From the NCBI GenBank assembly GCA_015061915.1, contig SUVR01000017.1, positions 1-39,935 of the forward strand: DNA of 39,935 nt. The letters run 5' to 3'. Source of the DNA: Lentisphaerota bacterium (GTDB lineage: Bacteria; Verrucomicrobiota; Lentisphaeria; Victivallales; UBA1829). A program made the translations under genes and the position numbers. The first letter of the stretch is position 1, and each line of letters opens with the position of its first letter. The notes below the pieces were generated by a model, which was given only the letters and a program-made list of their open reading frames with translations, did no database searches and had not been told where the DNA came from. Positions 19,991-39,935 of this stretch are shown one piece after another.

Positions 19991-20006
19991 CGCATTTTAA
20001 AATGCG
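19991..20006. repeat. Perfect 16-bp palindrome upstream of the permease gene
   Basis: CGCATTTTAAAATGCG is a perfect palindrome with no loop, so a protein-binding site is more likely than an RNA hairpin. It overlaps a weak -35 (TTTAAA) placed 16 bases before TATTGT on the minus strand, about 60 bases upstream of the permease start. Confidence 0.45.
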
Positions 20007-20019
20007 TAACTGTATTTTT

Positions 20020-20943
20020 TTAAGATTTCCCGTTCTTCAACGCTTTCTCAAAGGTCGTAAAATGCCGTTTGCTGATCTTCTCCAGCAATTCCGCCCCGCC
20101 GCTCCCCGCGATTTGCGCCGCCACGGAATCGACCTGACTGCCGGCACCTTTGGGAAGAGTATCCACGCCGGCGATCCCTGCAAGCGCCTCCAGACGCCGC
20201 ACGAACTCCGCACGGGCGAGGATGGAAGCGGCAGCAACGGCAATATCACTTTCTGCTTTTGTCCGCTGATCCAGATGGATTTTTCTGCCGTTTTCCAACA
20301 GCGCATTCCGGATCAGATGCTCATCCCCGAATTTATCTGCAAGAGCGGCTGGACATTCCGGTGCCTTTTCCAACAGATTTTCCAACGATCTGGCATGACC
20401 CCACGCCAACAGCCGGTTCAAACTGCCAATCTTCGCATACGCCCGGTTGTATGCTTCCGGGCCGATTACCACAATCGCAAACTTTCCCTGCACGAGTTTC
20501 ATAATCTCCGAGGCGATCCCGGCTATCTTTTTATCGCTCTTGATCTGTTTGGAGTCCCGGACACCAAGGGCAGAAAGTTTTTCTGCAACATCTTCATTTT
20601 CAACATAAACACAGGAAACAACAAGTGGTCCGAAAAAGTCGCCTTTCCCGCTTTCATCGATCCCCGCATGAGGCGAAAAGGGTTCCTGTTCCTCCGGCAG
20701 TTCCACTCCGGTGATATACGGTTCCAGAAGAAACTCCACAAAATCTGCCGTTCCTTTTCCCTGCACCACCAGTTTGCCGGAAGTATAAGCGGCAACCGTT
20801 GTTTTTTCTTTTTTTGCTTTGTAAAAACAGTAAGGCGCATCCGTCAGCTCCCAACCGTTTTCAAGCAGGACTGACCGGAGCTGCAACAGCTGTTCTTCCT
20901 CCAGTTTTTTTACCAAACCGGTATTTTTTTTATCGAAATCCAT
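20020..20943 (-). CDS. rnhC: Ribonuclease HIII
   Basis: Cleaves the RNA strand of RNA-DNA hybrids. The 307-residue length and an N-terminal domain of about 85 residues (TBP-like) before the catalytic core mark it as HIII rather than HII. The core opens with GIDESGKGDFFGPL (94-107), giving D96 and E97 as active-site acids; DSKQIKSDKK follows, and the later SDIAVAAASILAR contains the third aspartate. The start at 20943 has GGAG upstream. It is divergent from the exported coiled-coil protein and lies 92 bases before the LptF/G-like gene. Confidence 0.95.
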   Translation of the reverse strand: MDFDKKNTGLVKKLEEEQLLQLRSVLLENGWELTDAPYCFYKAKKEKTTVAAYTSGKLVVQGKGTADFVEFLLEPYITGVELPEEQEPFSPHAGIDESGKGDFFGPLVVSCVYVENEDVAEKLSALGVRDSKQIKSDKKIAGIASEIMKLVQGKFAIVVIGPEAYNRAYAKIGSLNRLLAWGHARSLENLLEKAPECPAALADKFGDEHLIRNALLENGRKIHLDQRTKAESDIAVAAASILARAEFVRRLEALAGIAGVDTLPKGAGSQVDSVAAQIAGSGGAELLEKISKRHFTTFEKALKNGKS

Positions 20944-21075: not shown

Positions 21076-22614
21076 ATGAAAAGACTGCTTTATTCGATCC
21101 CGGGATGTGTAATCCTCCTCTCGGCAGCTTTTGCCGCCCCGATTCCCCTGGATGCAGCGGAAAAAACAGTTAAGGCAAAACCCGCTACGATCTATACTCA
21201 ATCTGAATTCAAGATTTCTCAGGAACGTATGGCAATGATCGATGCGTTGCTGGATCGCACGATCAAACGGGGACTGGATGTTTCCAAGCAGTCTACGATC
21301 CTTCTGCTGGAAACGGAGATCTCCGGAAAAATGCCCCTGGTCCCGAAAGCTCCGGTCAGCAATAAAACGATCTCACAGATCTCCGCAGAAGCACGGAAGA
21401 TCGTCCGGGACGATGTGGCATATACCGCCCAGCAGGCAAATCTGAGAGTTGCTGCAGAAAAAGAGGCAGCCGAAAAATATCCCATTGCCAAACTGCGCAC
21501 AAAAGTCAAGTTCCAATACCAGAAGGGTCCCTATATTCAGGATGTGGAAGGCATCTTTTTTGCCGCAACAGAACGGTATGTGCAGATCAATGACAAACGG
21601 ATCCCTTATGTGGACCTTACGGATGAACTGCGGGCAAAGTTCGACCGCAAATTCAACGCTGAAATACGCAAAGAATTTGTGGAAAAGAAAATCCGCGAAC
21701 TGGATCAGAAAAAGAATGATGAAATCCAGCAGACATTTACAAAACTTCTTGCCGGTCAGGATAATCTGAACGAGAAAAACGGTTACATCTACGACAAATC
21801 CGAAAAGCAGTGGACCACAGCAAGAGGTTACCTGCAGAAACAACTCCCTGATGCAATGAAGAAATATCAGGCGTATCTGGAGGAACAACGGATCAAACAG
21901 CAGAAAGCAAGAGAACTGGAAGCCGCCAGAGCAAAAGAACTGGCTGCCTCCCGTGCCGTAACTGCAATCGATACCTCCGATGTAAAAAAGTACGAAGAGA
22001 TCCTGAACGCTGCCAAGAAAAAACGCCAGGAGATCCGCGAAAACAAATCCGGTGTGGATACATATCAGGGCTTCCGCAATGCACTCTGGGGTGCATCCCG
22101 TTACGATGTGGCATATCTCTTCTCCCGGACAAAAGGCGCCCGTTATGAATATGTGGACTTCAACAGCAAACTTATCCTGCCCCGCTATTTCCCGGCAGAA
22201 GTCTTCTTTGTCTTCGACAACAACAGTCTGGTGAAAGTCGTCATCGACTATGGTTACCAGCCCCGGCAGAAGGACGATGAAGCAGCGAAATCAGATGTAA
22301 AACGCCTGTTCTCCAGCGAAGATTTCAACAACCTCGTGATCTCCCTGCATGACATCTGCGGCGAAAGCGATGAAGAAAAAGCGGCAAAAGGTAATATCTT
22401 CAAGGAAATCGCCAACGGAACTCTGACGCCGGAAAAACTCCATCCGCCTCTGCCGCAGGATAATCAGGAAGATGAAAAAGCAGCTCCGGTCATCGTCAAG
22501 GATTTCACCGTTACCTGGACCGGAAAAGAAACAGATATGACTCTCTCGTTCCGCTACGACAAAGACAATGATGTCTATCAGAATGTCCAGCTCACCAAGG
22601 AACTGAAAAAGTAA
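21076..22614 (+). CDS. Exported coiled-coil protein of unknown function
   Basis: A 512-residue protein with a signal peptide (about 1-20, ...LLSAAFA/AP). Residues about 190-240 and 265-310 are highly charged, Lys/Glu/Gln/Ala-rich helices likely to form coiled coils. The central segment around 140-175 (KVKFQYQKGPYIQDVEGIFFAATERYV, shortened here to its first and last parts) is beta-rich. From about residue 333, GFRNALWGASRYDVAYLF resembles the small WG-x-S-xx-D/E-V domain found in exported proteins of Gram-negatives. No enzyme motif is seen. It has its own consensus promoter and AGGAA site and ends just before a large bidirectional terminator structure, so it is a single, probably highly expressed gene. 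Confidence 0.85.
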   Translation: MKRLLYSIPGCVILLSAAFAAPIPLDAAEKTVKAKPATIYTQSEFKISQERMAMIDALLDRTIKRGLDVSKQSTILLLETEISGKMPLVPKAPVSNKTISQISAEARKIVRDDVAYTAQQANLRVAAEKEAAEKYPIAKLRTKVKFQYQKGPYIQDVEGIFFAATERYVQINDKRIPYVDLTDELRAKFDRKFNAEIRKEFVEKKIRELDQKKNDEIQQTFTKLLAGQDNLNEKNGYIYDKSEKQWTTARGYLQKQLPDAMKKYQAYLEEQRIKQQKARELEAARAKELAASRAVTAIDTSDVKKYEEILNAAKKKRQEIRENKSGVDTYQGFRNALWGASRYDVAYLFSRTKGARYEYVDFNSKLILPRYFPAEVFFVFDNNSLVKVVIDYGYQPRQKDDEAAKSDVKRLFSSEDFNNLVISLHDICGESDEEKAAKGNIFKEIANGTLTPEKLHPPLPQDNQEDEKAAPVIVKDFTVTWTGKETDMTLSFRYDKDNDVYQNVQLTKELKK

Positions 22615-22655
22615 GCTGCAAATGCTCACCCGGCAGAATGCACGGGGCACAGCAG

Positions 22656-22692
22656 ACGGATCGCCGGTTCCGGCGATCCGTTTTCTTTTTTT
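22656..22692 (+). terminator. Terminator of the exported coiled-coil protein gene
   Basis: Hairpin A of the cloverleaf (ACGGATCGCCGG and its exact complement around a TT loop) is followed directly by TTTTCTTTTTTT (22681-22692), a textbook intrinsic terminator 40 bases after the stop codon. Confidence 0.88.
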
Positions 22693-22715
22693 CTGCGGCG
22701 ACTTTTGCGCCGCTG

Positions 22716-22760
22716 AAAAAAAGAAATGCCCACCGCTGCGCACTGCTGCGCGCGGTGGGC
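22716..22760 (-). terminator. Terminator of hrpB
   Basis: Hairpin C, read on the minus strand, has the GCCCACCGC/GCGGTGGGC stem and is followed by TTTCTTTTTTT (22726-22716). It lies about 45 bases past the hrpB stop and mirrors the plus-strand terminator. Confidence 0.85.
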
Positions 22761-22805
22761 TGCTGCTGTGCCCCGTGACATTCTGCCGGGTGATACTGTG
22801 TTGTT

Positions 22806-25271
22806 TTATTTCGGGCGTTTCACGCCGCGGTGAGCGATTGCAGCGGTGGGATCTTCGGGCCAGTCGTGTTTCGGGTAGCGGCCTCTCATATCCTTCCGGA
22901 CGAGAAAATAGGATTCATTCCAGAAGGACTCCAGATCTCTTGTTTTCTGTACGGTCCGCATAGCGGGGGAGAGGATATCCATCAGTAACGGCACTCTGCC
23001 TCCGGCGAGGGACGGCGTTTTTTTCAGCCCGAAAAGTTCCTGCAGACGGACGGACACGATCGGTTGCAGGGGATCGGAATAATTGATTGTGATATGGCTG
23101 CCGCTGGGCACTTCAAATTTTTCCGGTGCAAGCTGACGCATCGCCAGCAGATCGGATACATTCAATGCACTTTCCAGGATCATCCGGTAGTTCAATTTTT
23201 TCAGTTCGTCCAATTTCCTGAAACCGGAAACATACGGTGCGAGCCAATCCTCCAGACTTGCCATCAACCCCTCTTCGCTGAAGTCCGGATACTGTTCCGC
23301 ATAGCCGTTCCTGTGCAGAAATGTCACACGCTCCCGGAAGGCTTGTTCGTTTTTGCTCATGCCGAGAGCGGTGAAACCGGTCTTCCGGATCCCCTCCAGA
23401 AATACGGCAAGCAGTTCATCATCGGGGACATCTGCGACTTGTTTCCGGTCCAGCACCATACTGCCGTAAAATTGGATCTTCCATGCACGTACGCACTTTG
23501 CGGTGCTGTCCCATGCCACATCAAAACGTTCCTGCACGGGTAAAATTGTTTTCAAACTCTCCTCTGCCACTGGAGCGGCGAGACGGATTTTTGTTTTTCC
23601 ACGCAGGGTTGTAGTTTCGCCCACTGCGAGAAAGTCGTATTTCGTCAGTACATCTTCCCGATCCAGTTCGGCAACGGTTCCATTGGCGAGGATGTAAGAA
23701 ACAGCTCCGGCGCCGCTTTGCCCGTCCCGTTTCTTCGCCACCCGGTCCGGATAAGCATATGCCAGATATTCCCCGGCATTTTCCACTTGTTCCGGTCCGG
23801 TGTTTCCGTTCCGTGTCAACCGTTCAACGGTCTGCCGGATACGGAAACGGATTGCGGGATCACCGCCGCTGTTCCGGCCGAGTGCCTCCAAGCGTGCGCT
23901 GATGTCTGCAGTTCCACACTTGAGGAAATCCCGTTCCCCCAGCAATGCGGCGATCTGCAAAGCAGTACGGGACCGATGGCTTTTCAGGATCATATGTCCC
24001 AACCGGGGATGGATCGGCAACTTCAGAAGAGCCCGCCCGTGGTCCGTCAGTTTTCCATTCTGTACAGCTCCGAGATCGTTCAATACGGCATACGCCTGTT
24101 CCAGATGAACGGCAGGCGGCGGATCGGGGAACGGCAAACTCTCCGCCTGTTCCGGCGACACGCCCCAGTTCAGCAGCTCCAGAGTCAATTCACAAAGATC
24201 GCTTTCCATGATCTCCGGCGGTCGATGCGCTTCAAAGCCCCGTTCCCCCGTTTCACTCCACAGCCGGATACAGACCCCTTCCGTCACGCGCCCCGCACGC
24301 CCGCGGCGTTGTTCTGCAGCAGCGAGGGAGACCCGTATGGTTTCCAGACGGTTCATTCCGTTTGCAGGAGAAAAACGGGGTACCCGCATCCAGCCGCAGT
24401 CGATCACGATCTGTACACCCTCCACGGTCAAACTGGTTTCCGCAATCGCAGTGGAAAGAATCACACGCCGCCGGTCGTTCCGGGTAAAGATCCGGTCCTG
24501 TTTTTCGGCAGGCAGATTGCCGTAAAGCGGCAGCACATCAAAATCATTCTGTTCACCGAGGGCGCTCTGAACCTGCAGGATCTCCGCCTCACCCGGCAGA
24601 AAAACGAGTGCATCGCCCGGAAAATGGTTCATCGCATTCCGGATCGTGAACGCAACCTGCTCCGCCTGCGCTGTTTCAACGGGACTGTAGATCGTCCGGA
24701 CAGGAAATACCCTGCCCTGCACATGGATCGTCTCTGCATCCGGGATCAGTTTTTTCAACGATGGCAGATCGAGGGTGGCGGACATAACCATGATCCGCAG
24801 GTCCTCCCGCAGATTTGCACGCACATCGAGAGCAAGAGCCAGCCCCAGATCAGCATGGATGTTCCGTTCGTGAAATTCGTCAAATATGATCAGCCCCGCC
24901 TCCGGCAGGTCCGGATCATGCTGGATCATTCGGGTCAGGATCGCCTCTGTCACCACCTCGATTCGTGTCTCACCGGAAACTTTCGTTTCCGTCCCGGTAC
25001 GGTAACCGACTTTTCCGCCCACCGGACACCCCAGCAGCTGTGCCATCCGTCCGGCTGTGGCACGGGCTGCGATCCGGCGCGGCTCCAGCATAATGATCTT
25101 TTTTCCCGCCAGCCAGTCCGGCTCATCCAACAGAAATGCAGGAGGAACAAGGGTACTTTTCCCTGCCCCCGGTTCCGCAGAAAGAAACAGCACGCCGTTC
25201 TGCCGGAACGCCGCAACGATCTCCGGCAGTTTTTCCTGGACCGGAAGGGATGGAAGAAGATCGAAACTCAT
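22806..25271 (-). CDS. hrpB: ATP-dependent RNA helicase HrpB (DEAH-box family)
   Basis: An 821-residue DExH helicase matching the HrpB length. Motifs: Walker A GAGKST (35-40), motif Ia EPRRIAAR (63-70), DEFH (131-134), SAT (164-166), the STAIAETSLT strand (273-282) and motif VI QRRGRAGR (321-328). The HA2 and OB-like regions follow, and the C-terminal HrpB-specific domain (from about 680) carries LPVQERFDVAW upstream and the KHDWPEDPTAA ending typical of the family. Cytoplasmic; its role in bacteria is in RNA metabolism but is poorly defined. Its ATG overlaps the sirtuin stop codon by four bases (ATGA), so the two are translationally coupled. Confidence 0.95.
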   Translation of the reverse strand: MSFDLLPSLPVQEKLPEIVAAFRQNGVLFLSAEPGAGKSTLVPPAFLLDEPDWLAGKKIIMLEPRRIAARATAGRMAQLLGCPVGGKVGYRTGTETKVSGETRIEVVTEAILTRMIQHDPDLPEAGLIIFDEFHERNIHADLGLALALDVRANLREDLRIMVMSATLDLPSLKKLIPDAETIHVQGRVFPVRTIYSPVETAQAEQVAFTIRNAMNHFPGDALVFLPGEAEILQVQSALGEQNDFDVLPLYGNLPAEKQDRIFTRNDRRRVILSTAIAETSLTVEGVQIVIDCGWMRVPRFSPANGMNRLETIRVSLAAAEQRRGRAGRVTEGVCIRLWSETGERGFEAHRPPEIMESDLCELTLELLNWGVSPEQAESLPFPDPPPAVHLEQAYAVLNDLGAVQNGKLTDHGRALLKLPIHPRLGHMILKSHRSRTALQIAALLGERDFLKCGTADISARLEALGRNSGGDPAIRFRIRQTVERLTRNGNTGPEQVENAGEYLAYAYPDRVAKKRDGQSGAGAVSYILANGTVAELDREDVLTKYDFLAVGETTTLRGKTKIRLAAPVAEESLKTILPVQERFDVAWDSTAKCVRAWKIQFYGSMVLDRKQVADVPDDELLAVFLEGIRKTGFTALGMSKNEQAFRERVTFLHRNGYAEQYPDFSEEGLMASLEDWLAPYVSGFRKLDELKKLNYRMILESALNVSDLLAMRQLAPEKFEVPSGSHITINYSDPLQPIVSVRLQELFGLKKTPSLAGGRVPLLMDILSPAMRTVQKTRDLESFWNESYFLVRKDMRGRYPKHDWPEDPTAAIAHRGVKRPK

Positions 25272-39581: not shown

Positions 39582-39601
39582 GAAAAAATGGCAAAAAAAA
39601 T

Positions 39602-39713
39602 CCGGCGTCGAACTACTCTCCCGCACTCTTGTGTGCAGTACCATCGTCGCTGAGGTCCTTATCGATCGTGTTCGGGATGGGAACGTGAGTATCGACCTCG
39701 CTATAGACACCGG
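39602..39713 (-). rRNA. rrf: 5S ribosomal RNA, distal copy
   Basis: A complete 5S rRNA of about 112 nucleotides on the minus strand. The terminal helix CCGGTGTC with GACGCCGG is intact, and the conserved CCCATCCCGAACACG and GATGGTACTGC segments are present. A T-run follows the 3' end directly, and a stem terminator lies slightly further on. It is the last gene of an rRNA operon whose 23S gene must lie beyond the right edge. Confidence 0.95.
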
Positions 39714-39828
39714 AAAAAGTTATAAAGCAGCCTGAAATCCTGCAGAATCAGTAGTGTGTGAAGGCAGGAGCTGGAATACACCCATGGACTGTCTGAGAGG
39801 ATATGCTGAAAAAAGGGCAAAAAAAAAT

Positions 39829-39935
39829 CCGGCGTCGAACTACTCTCCCGCACTCTTGTGTGCAGTACCATCGTCGCTGAGGTCCTTATCGATCGTGTTC
39901 GGGATGGGAACGTGAGTATCAACCTCGCAATAGAC
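39829..39935 (-). rRNA. rrf: 5S ribosomal RNA, proximal copy, cut by the window edge
   Basis: A second 5S rRNA on the minus strand, with about 107 of 112 nucleotides visible; the 5' five bases are off the window. It is identical to the distal copy apart from two substitutions near the 5' end (in GCGAGGTTGATACTC and the preceding CTATTG). A run of T residues follows its 3' end. The 115-base spacer between the copies holds no tRNA. Confidence 0.93.

Follow-up and report, generated by a model that had tools for sequence, protein, structure and literature searches.

Fold-defined cloverleaf palindromes restricted to one genus of Lentisphaerota, and their likely use as bidirectional terminators between convergent genes

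The palindrome at positions 22626-22793 of a 39,935-nucleotide contig from a Lentisphaerota bacterium (SUVR01000017.1, the whole of which is called the window here) is one of dozens of elements that make up a genome-wide class defined by structure. This class is genus-restricted, on a comparison of the source genome and one congener (G001) with 1.7 Mb of other DNA. The account that we favour, and regard as moderately probable, is that these are genus-restricted, structure-defined palindromes that act as bidirectional terminators at convergent gene ends and whose pairing is kept at the DNA level. Dispersed palindromes are normally recognised through a shared sequence, and a class that shares only its fold would escape both repeat finders and Rfam; it would also be a case in which selection or mutation acts on nothing but secondary structure.

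The window element lies between two convergent genes. It starts 11 bp past the stop codon of a plus-strand gene (21076-22614; 512 amino acids, with no match in a Pfam search), and its right edge is 12 bp from the end of a minus-strand gene for an HrpB-type DEAH helicase (22806-25271; 821 amino acids; PF08482, PF00271, and PF00270). RNA folding of positions 22620-22800 gave a single dominant cloverleaf of 168 bp at 22626-22793 on both strands, with minimum free energies (MFE) of -140.2 kcal/mol (plus) and -140.0 kcal/mol (minus) against shuffled means of -66 and -63. Relative to dinucleotide shuffles, z was -17 on the plus strand and -18 on the minus strand, and none of 200 shuffles folded as well, so the cloverleaf that a first-pass annotation had proposed between these genes is real. 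The outer stem pairs a 30-bp left arm (22626-22655) with a 31-nucleotide right arm (22763-22793) that carries one bulged base, and it encloses hairpin A (22656-22681, plus strand; 11 bp with a TTCC loop), hairpin B (22682-22726; 19 bp), and hairpin C (22728-22760, minus strand; 14 bp with one bulge), with only three unpaired bases around the junction. These lengths agree with the annotation for the outer stem (30 bp, one bulge) and for hairpins B and C but not for hairpin A, which had been given 12 bp. An Rfam search of the window returned nothing above the gathering score for the element and matched only 5S rRNA.

Hairpin B consists of a T-tract, a GC stem, and an A-tract, a layout that recurs in most elements of the class. 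Its 5' arm is the T-tract TTTCTTTTTTTC (22682-22693, plus strand), which directly follows hairpin A, and its A-tract (22714-22726) is a T-tract on the minus strand, where it follows hairpin C; the annotation had placed both tracts correctly. The 14 nucleotides after hairpin A contain 11 T residues on the plus strand, and those after hairpin C contain 10 on the minus strand. Hairpin A alone folds with -20.8 kcal/mol, and hairpin C together with its T-tract folds with -30.3 kcal/mol on the minus strand. Hairpin A is a putative terminator hairpin for transcription of the left gene and hairpin C a putative one for hrpB. At convergent ends, this one included, the two outer hairpins and the T-tracts of the middle hairpin would form face-to-face intrinsic terminators. 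By this anatomy, bidirectional termination is the most likely role of the window copy. RNA that ends in the T-tract would hold no more than one hairpin and the left outer arm, so the outer stem and hairpin B could not act in the terminated RNA.

A search of the source genome for the 168-bp sequence found no copy. The best non-self match (75% over 68 bp) spans only the hairpin and T-tract, and the places that partially match this T-tract hairpin have the same architecture with a different sequence. The pattern CTTTTTTN{8,38}AAAAAAG was not discriminating by itself, the reversed pattern giving as many hits as the forward one, and a fold parser was therefore adopted. Scanning 803 kb of the source genome for folding revealed 36 strongly folding places, nearly all of them cloverleaves. 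A strict four-helix parser, which required an outer stem of 12 bp or more, two or more inner hairpins of 6 bp or more, and 80% of bases paired, recovered 31 elements from the same 803 kb, and a slightly looser version recovered eight more from a separate 397 kb. GC-rich coding DNA of Paenibacillus and others also triggers a loose filter on inverted repeats and energy, whereas it does not trigger the strict parser. The outer stems are 12 to 39 bp long, the whole elements measure 120 to 195 bp, and the three hairpins abut, mostly with 0 to 2 unpaired bases per side, giving a near-perfect four-way junction. When compact long inverted repeats were collected from the 1.2 Mb sampled with the number of branches unconstrained, all 40 had exactly three inner hairpins (32/32 and 8/8), with no case of one, two, or four; this constancy is explained by neither template switching nor termination. 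The density is approximately 20 to 40 elements per Mb, or about 50 to 100 per genome, in a sample made up of stretches, part of the first set of which had been picked for holding T-tract hits. An earlier figure of ~110 per genome, obtained from contig C25, was discarded as too high once the second sample was counted. With this common architecture goes almost no common sequence: the longest shared word has 19 bases, the partial motif GGCGCAGACC occurs in four of the 31 elements, and no fixed word runs through the class. Further copies thus exist by the dozen, as the annotation had suggested looking for, but they are copies of a fold and not of a sequence.

T-tracts (at least 6 T in 14 nucleotides) follow hairpin 1 on the plus strand and hairpin 3 on the minus strand in 22 of the 31 elements, the window copy among them, and 17 of these 22 lie between called convergent genes; L178:439 would be one more convergent case if its right neighbour is read as minus strand. 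Of the 20 elements in stretches not picked for T-tract hits (contig C25 plus the second sample), 8 are in convergent gaps, versus 64 of 556 gene pairs (P = 0.001). This anatomy and this enrichment support the mirror-symmetric double terminator described in the first-pass annotation. Several terminator layouts occur within the one fold, not just the T/GC/A middle hairpin; in L164:1858-2015, L154:12714-12856, L168:2777-2935, and L181:11775-11905, an ordinary A-tract/GC/T-tract hairpin, or else the outer stem, serves as the terminator. Termination is not what unites the class, because 9 of the 31 elements have no paired T-tracts and some members lie within coding regions or separate divergent genes.

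G001, which is fragmented, is the only other genome of the genus compared, and the parser found three elements in 128 kb of it. For other genera of the same family (661 kb) it found none, a zero count that would have a chance of about 2e-6 at 20 per Mb; the order's other families (140 kb) and 78 loci from many bacterial phyla (894 kb) likewise gave none. Convergent gaps with an MFE below -0.6 kcal/mol per base were seen in the source genome only, among the genomes compared. Assembly artefact was rejected, since diverged orthologues occupy the same gene junctions in G001, an independent genome. Loss of Rho as a cause of strong terminators was also rejected, Rho being present in the source genome, in G001, and in nearly all relatives.

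Several elements lie in quite different settings. On contig C25 of the source genome, L160:18082-18208 sits in frame in the N-terminal part of a MEMO/AMMECR1-type gene. Orthologues in the family begin only a little ahead of the conserved AGSWYP motif, which leaves ~43 extra residues here; on the same contig, L162:7899-8066 is in frame close to the start of a gene for a membrane protein. The N-terminal segments that these two elements add are of low complexity. The element at L160:12780 lies between divergent genes and lacks T-tracts. The G001 element L212:1502-1642 has no counterpart at the orthologous site of the source genome, which holds just ~60 bp of unrelated AT-rich DNA. At L167:13433, gene order in the source genome and G001 differs exactly at the element, and contig C7 of the source genome (L279, C7:16576-18352) retains only an arm-like remnant, CACGGGCGCAGACCGCCGGT, at a breakpoint of synteny with G001. 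A long GCAA tetranucleotide tandem repeat follows this remnant near the end of the contig. The coding, divergent, presence/absence, and breakpoint cases suggest DNA elements that undergo gain, loss, and recombination and are often used for termination. Under the account we favour, elements would arise by gain at gene ends or at tolerant coding sites, not by the copying of one sequence.

A possible though doubtful reading goes further and takes the class as a new kind of bacterial repeat defined by its four-way-junction fold only, termination being a secondary use. Here a cell protein (junction-binding protein, resolvase, recombinase, or polymerase) would recognise or make the DNA cloverleaf, and copies would be gained, flipped, and lost as folded DNA while their sequence drifts freely. 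We think it unlikely that the class is instead a structure-recognised mobile element, a palindrome moved or copied as a folded single strand and known by its junction rather than its sequence, like mitochondrial double-hairpin elements or Rickettsia palindromic elements. The site lacking the L212 element, the in-frame insertions with their extra N-terminal residues, and the synteny breakpoint inside an element speak for such mobility. So does an excess of shared 12-base words among elements (81 versus 6.6 in shuffles that preserve structure and not dinucleotide content), which lends weak support to an exchange of modules between elements. Against it, the elements are not sequence copies, no source copy was seen, and no target-site duplication was seen either, the flanks of the one empty site being too diverged. 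Nor was a mobilising protein identified: a search for a full-length Y1 (RAYT) transposase found 59 of 121 profile positions in the source genome and none in G001. Since the 168-bp sequence has no second copy in the genome and the one Y1 transposase there is truncated, the suggestion of a MITE- or REP-like family of copies of one sequence is not supported.

A T-tract pattern search in G001 combined with synteny yielded eight usable orthologous pairs, a natural set for separating template switching, cruciform extrusion, and terminator function. The outer stem and the three hairpins are kept in all eight. Excluding gaps, we counted 15 compensatory Watson-Crick double changes versus a mean of 2.7 with partners reshuffled. 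The outer stem alone accounts for four versus 0.7 expected (P = 0.0005), and that of the window element shows a compensatory change from A-T to C-G in its same-genus orthologue. The covariation that the annotation had proposed as a check thus extends to the outer stem; instead of a single copy with an unconserved stem, which would have argued against its reading, there are many elements whose outer stems are kept by compensatory changes. In the pair L186/L240, hairpin 3 keeps its orientation, but hairpins 1 and 2 each appear in place as their reverse complements, and all 32 bases of hairpin 1 match once it is flipped; in L175/L245, the entire interior runs the opposite way with respect to the genes. 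Template switching between inverted repeats has a known signature, in which arms are homogenised and the spacer is inverted (PMC8604942), and since it yields the same signal, the compensatory changes are no proof of selection on RNA. In our favoured account, the pairing would be kept near perfect by template switching from arm to arm of hairpins that are extruded or single-stranded, which would homogenise arms and invert loops and act together with selection for the four-way fold. The flips and homogenised arms, and likewise the elements in coding and promoter regions, would also suit a neutral by-product, in which a lineage-specific process of template switching or snap-back synthesis makes and perfects palindromes whose architecture has no function. 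The invariant three hairpins, the enrichment at convergent ends, and the T-tracts on both strands in most elements make this decidedly unlikely.

The pairs themselves bear on whether the fold is kept in DNA or in RNA. In 34 elements, 2165 pairs were classified: 2113 Watson-Crick (97.6%), 29 G-T, and 23 A-C. The corresponding counts for 63 simple terminators of this genome are 665, 55, and 24, in a set chosen by sense-strand folding, which somewhat favours G-U. Terminal hairpins of the elements have 8 G-U pairs in the sense orientation and 12 in the antisense orientation (P = 0.02 against the 55 and 24 of the simple terminators), where sense means hairpin 1 on the plus strand and hairpin 3 on the minus strand, a grouping that treats every element as convergent. 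Going by base composition of the pairs, pairing looks to be maintained at the DNA level, or equally for both strands. A functional RNA, in which the full cloverleaf in read-through transcripts protects or processes mRNA 3' ends, would be in keeping with the very stable fold, the compensatory changes, and the position just past stop codons. We judge it quite improbable, as G-T and A-C pairs are equally rare, the terminal hairpins lack the sense-strand G-U excess of ordinary terminators, T-tract-terminated RNA would miss the right outer arm, some elements are located within genes, and Rfam gave no match. The structured RNA considered in the annotation is accordingly disfavoured as a strand-specific role, and its other idea, DNA extrusion, or a DNA-level role of some kind, is the best-fitting candidate. 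Terminator hairpins and T-tracts do occur, but that two ordinary ones were elaborated by chance has a negligible probability given dozens of elements of the same four-arm shape in the genus, none in 1.7 Mb of other DNA, and compensatory changes in the outer stem.

Known systems resemble these elements in part. Bidirectional intrinsic (Rho-independent) terminators likewise have a GC hairpin and then a T-tract on both strands just past the stop codons. The usual form is a single A-tract/GC/T-tract hairpin, whereas here two hairpins face each other across a T/GC/A hairpin inside an outer stem. Rickettsia palindromic elements and bacterial MITEs (PMC10969869) are also palindromic, dispersed, ~100 to 190 bp long, and found in frame within genes, but their families share sequence and terminal inverted repeats, and the present class shares architecture only. 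REP/BIME elements with RAYT transposases are likewise palindromes dispersed at gene ends, where they can influence termination; PMC3733652 describes REPs as 20 to 40 bp long with sequence signatures such as GTAG. In our elements no such signature was seen, and the genome has only a truncated Y1 fragment. Mitochondrial double-hairpin or repetitive hairpin-forming elements (PMC2800124) are structure based, mostly intergenic but also inside genes, and show complementary substitutions. They are organellar, however, and mostly have one or two hairpins, in contrast to the bacterial elements here with always three in a stem. In uptake-signal terminators (Kingsford et al. 2007, PMC1852404), inverted pairs form terminators at gene ends, resting on a fixed uptake word of a kind not found in this class. 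Literature searches on bidirectional or convergent inverted-repeat terminators, Lentisphaerae palindromic elements, and Victivallis inverted repeats found no matching report.

Elsewhere in the window, overlapping open reading frames on both strands make the gene call at 20002-20943 ambiguous. In a single-gene placement by an HrpB tree, the source genome groups with Kiritimatiellota (SH-aLRT 96), its nearest neighbours being two genomes of that tree. Two tandem 5S rRNA matches lie at 39600-39935 on the minus strand, the second cut by the contig end, and the contig break probably falls at an rRNA operon.
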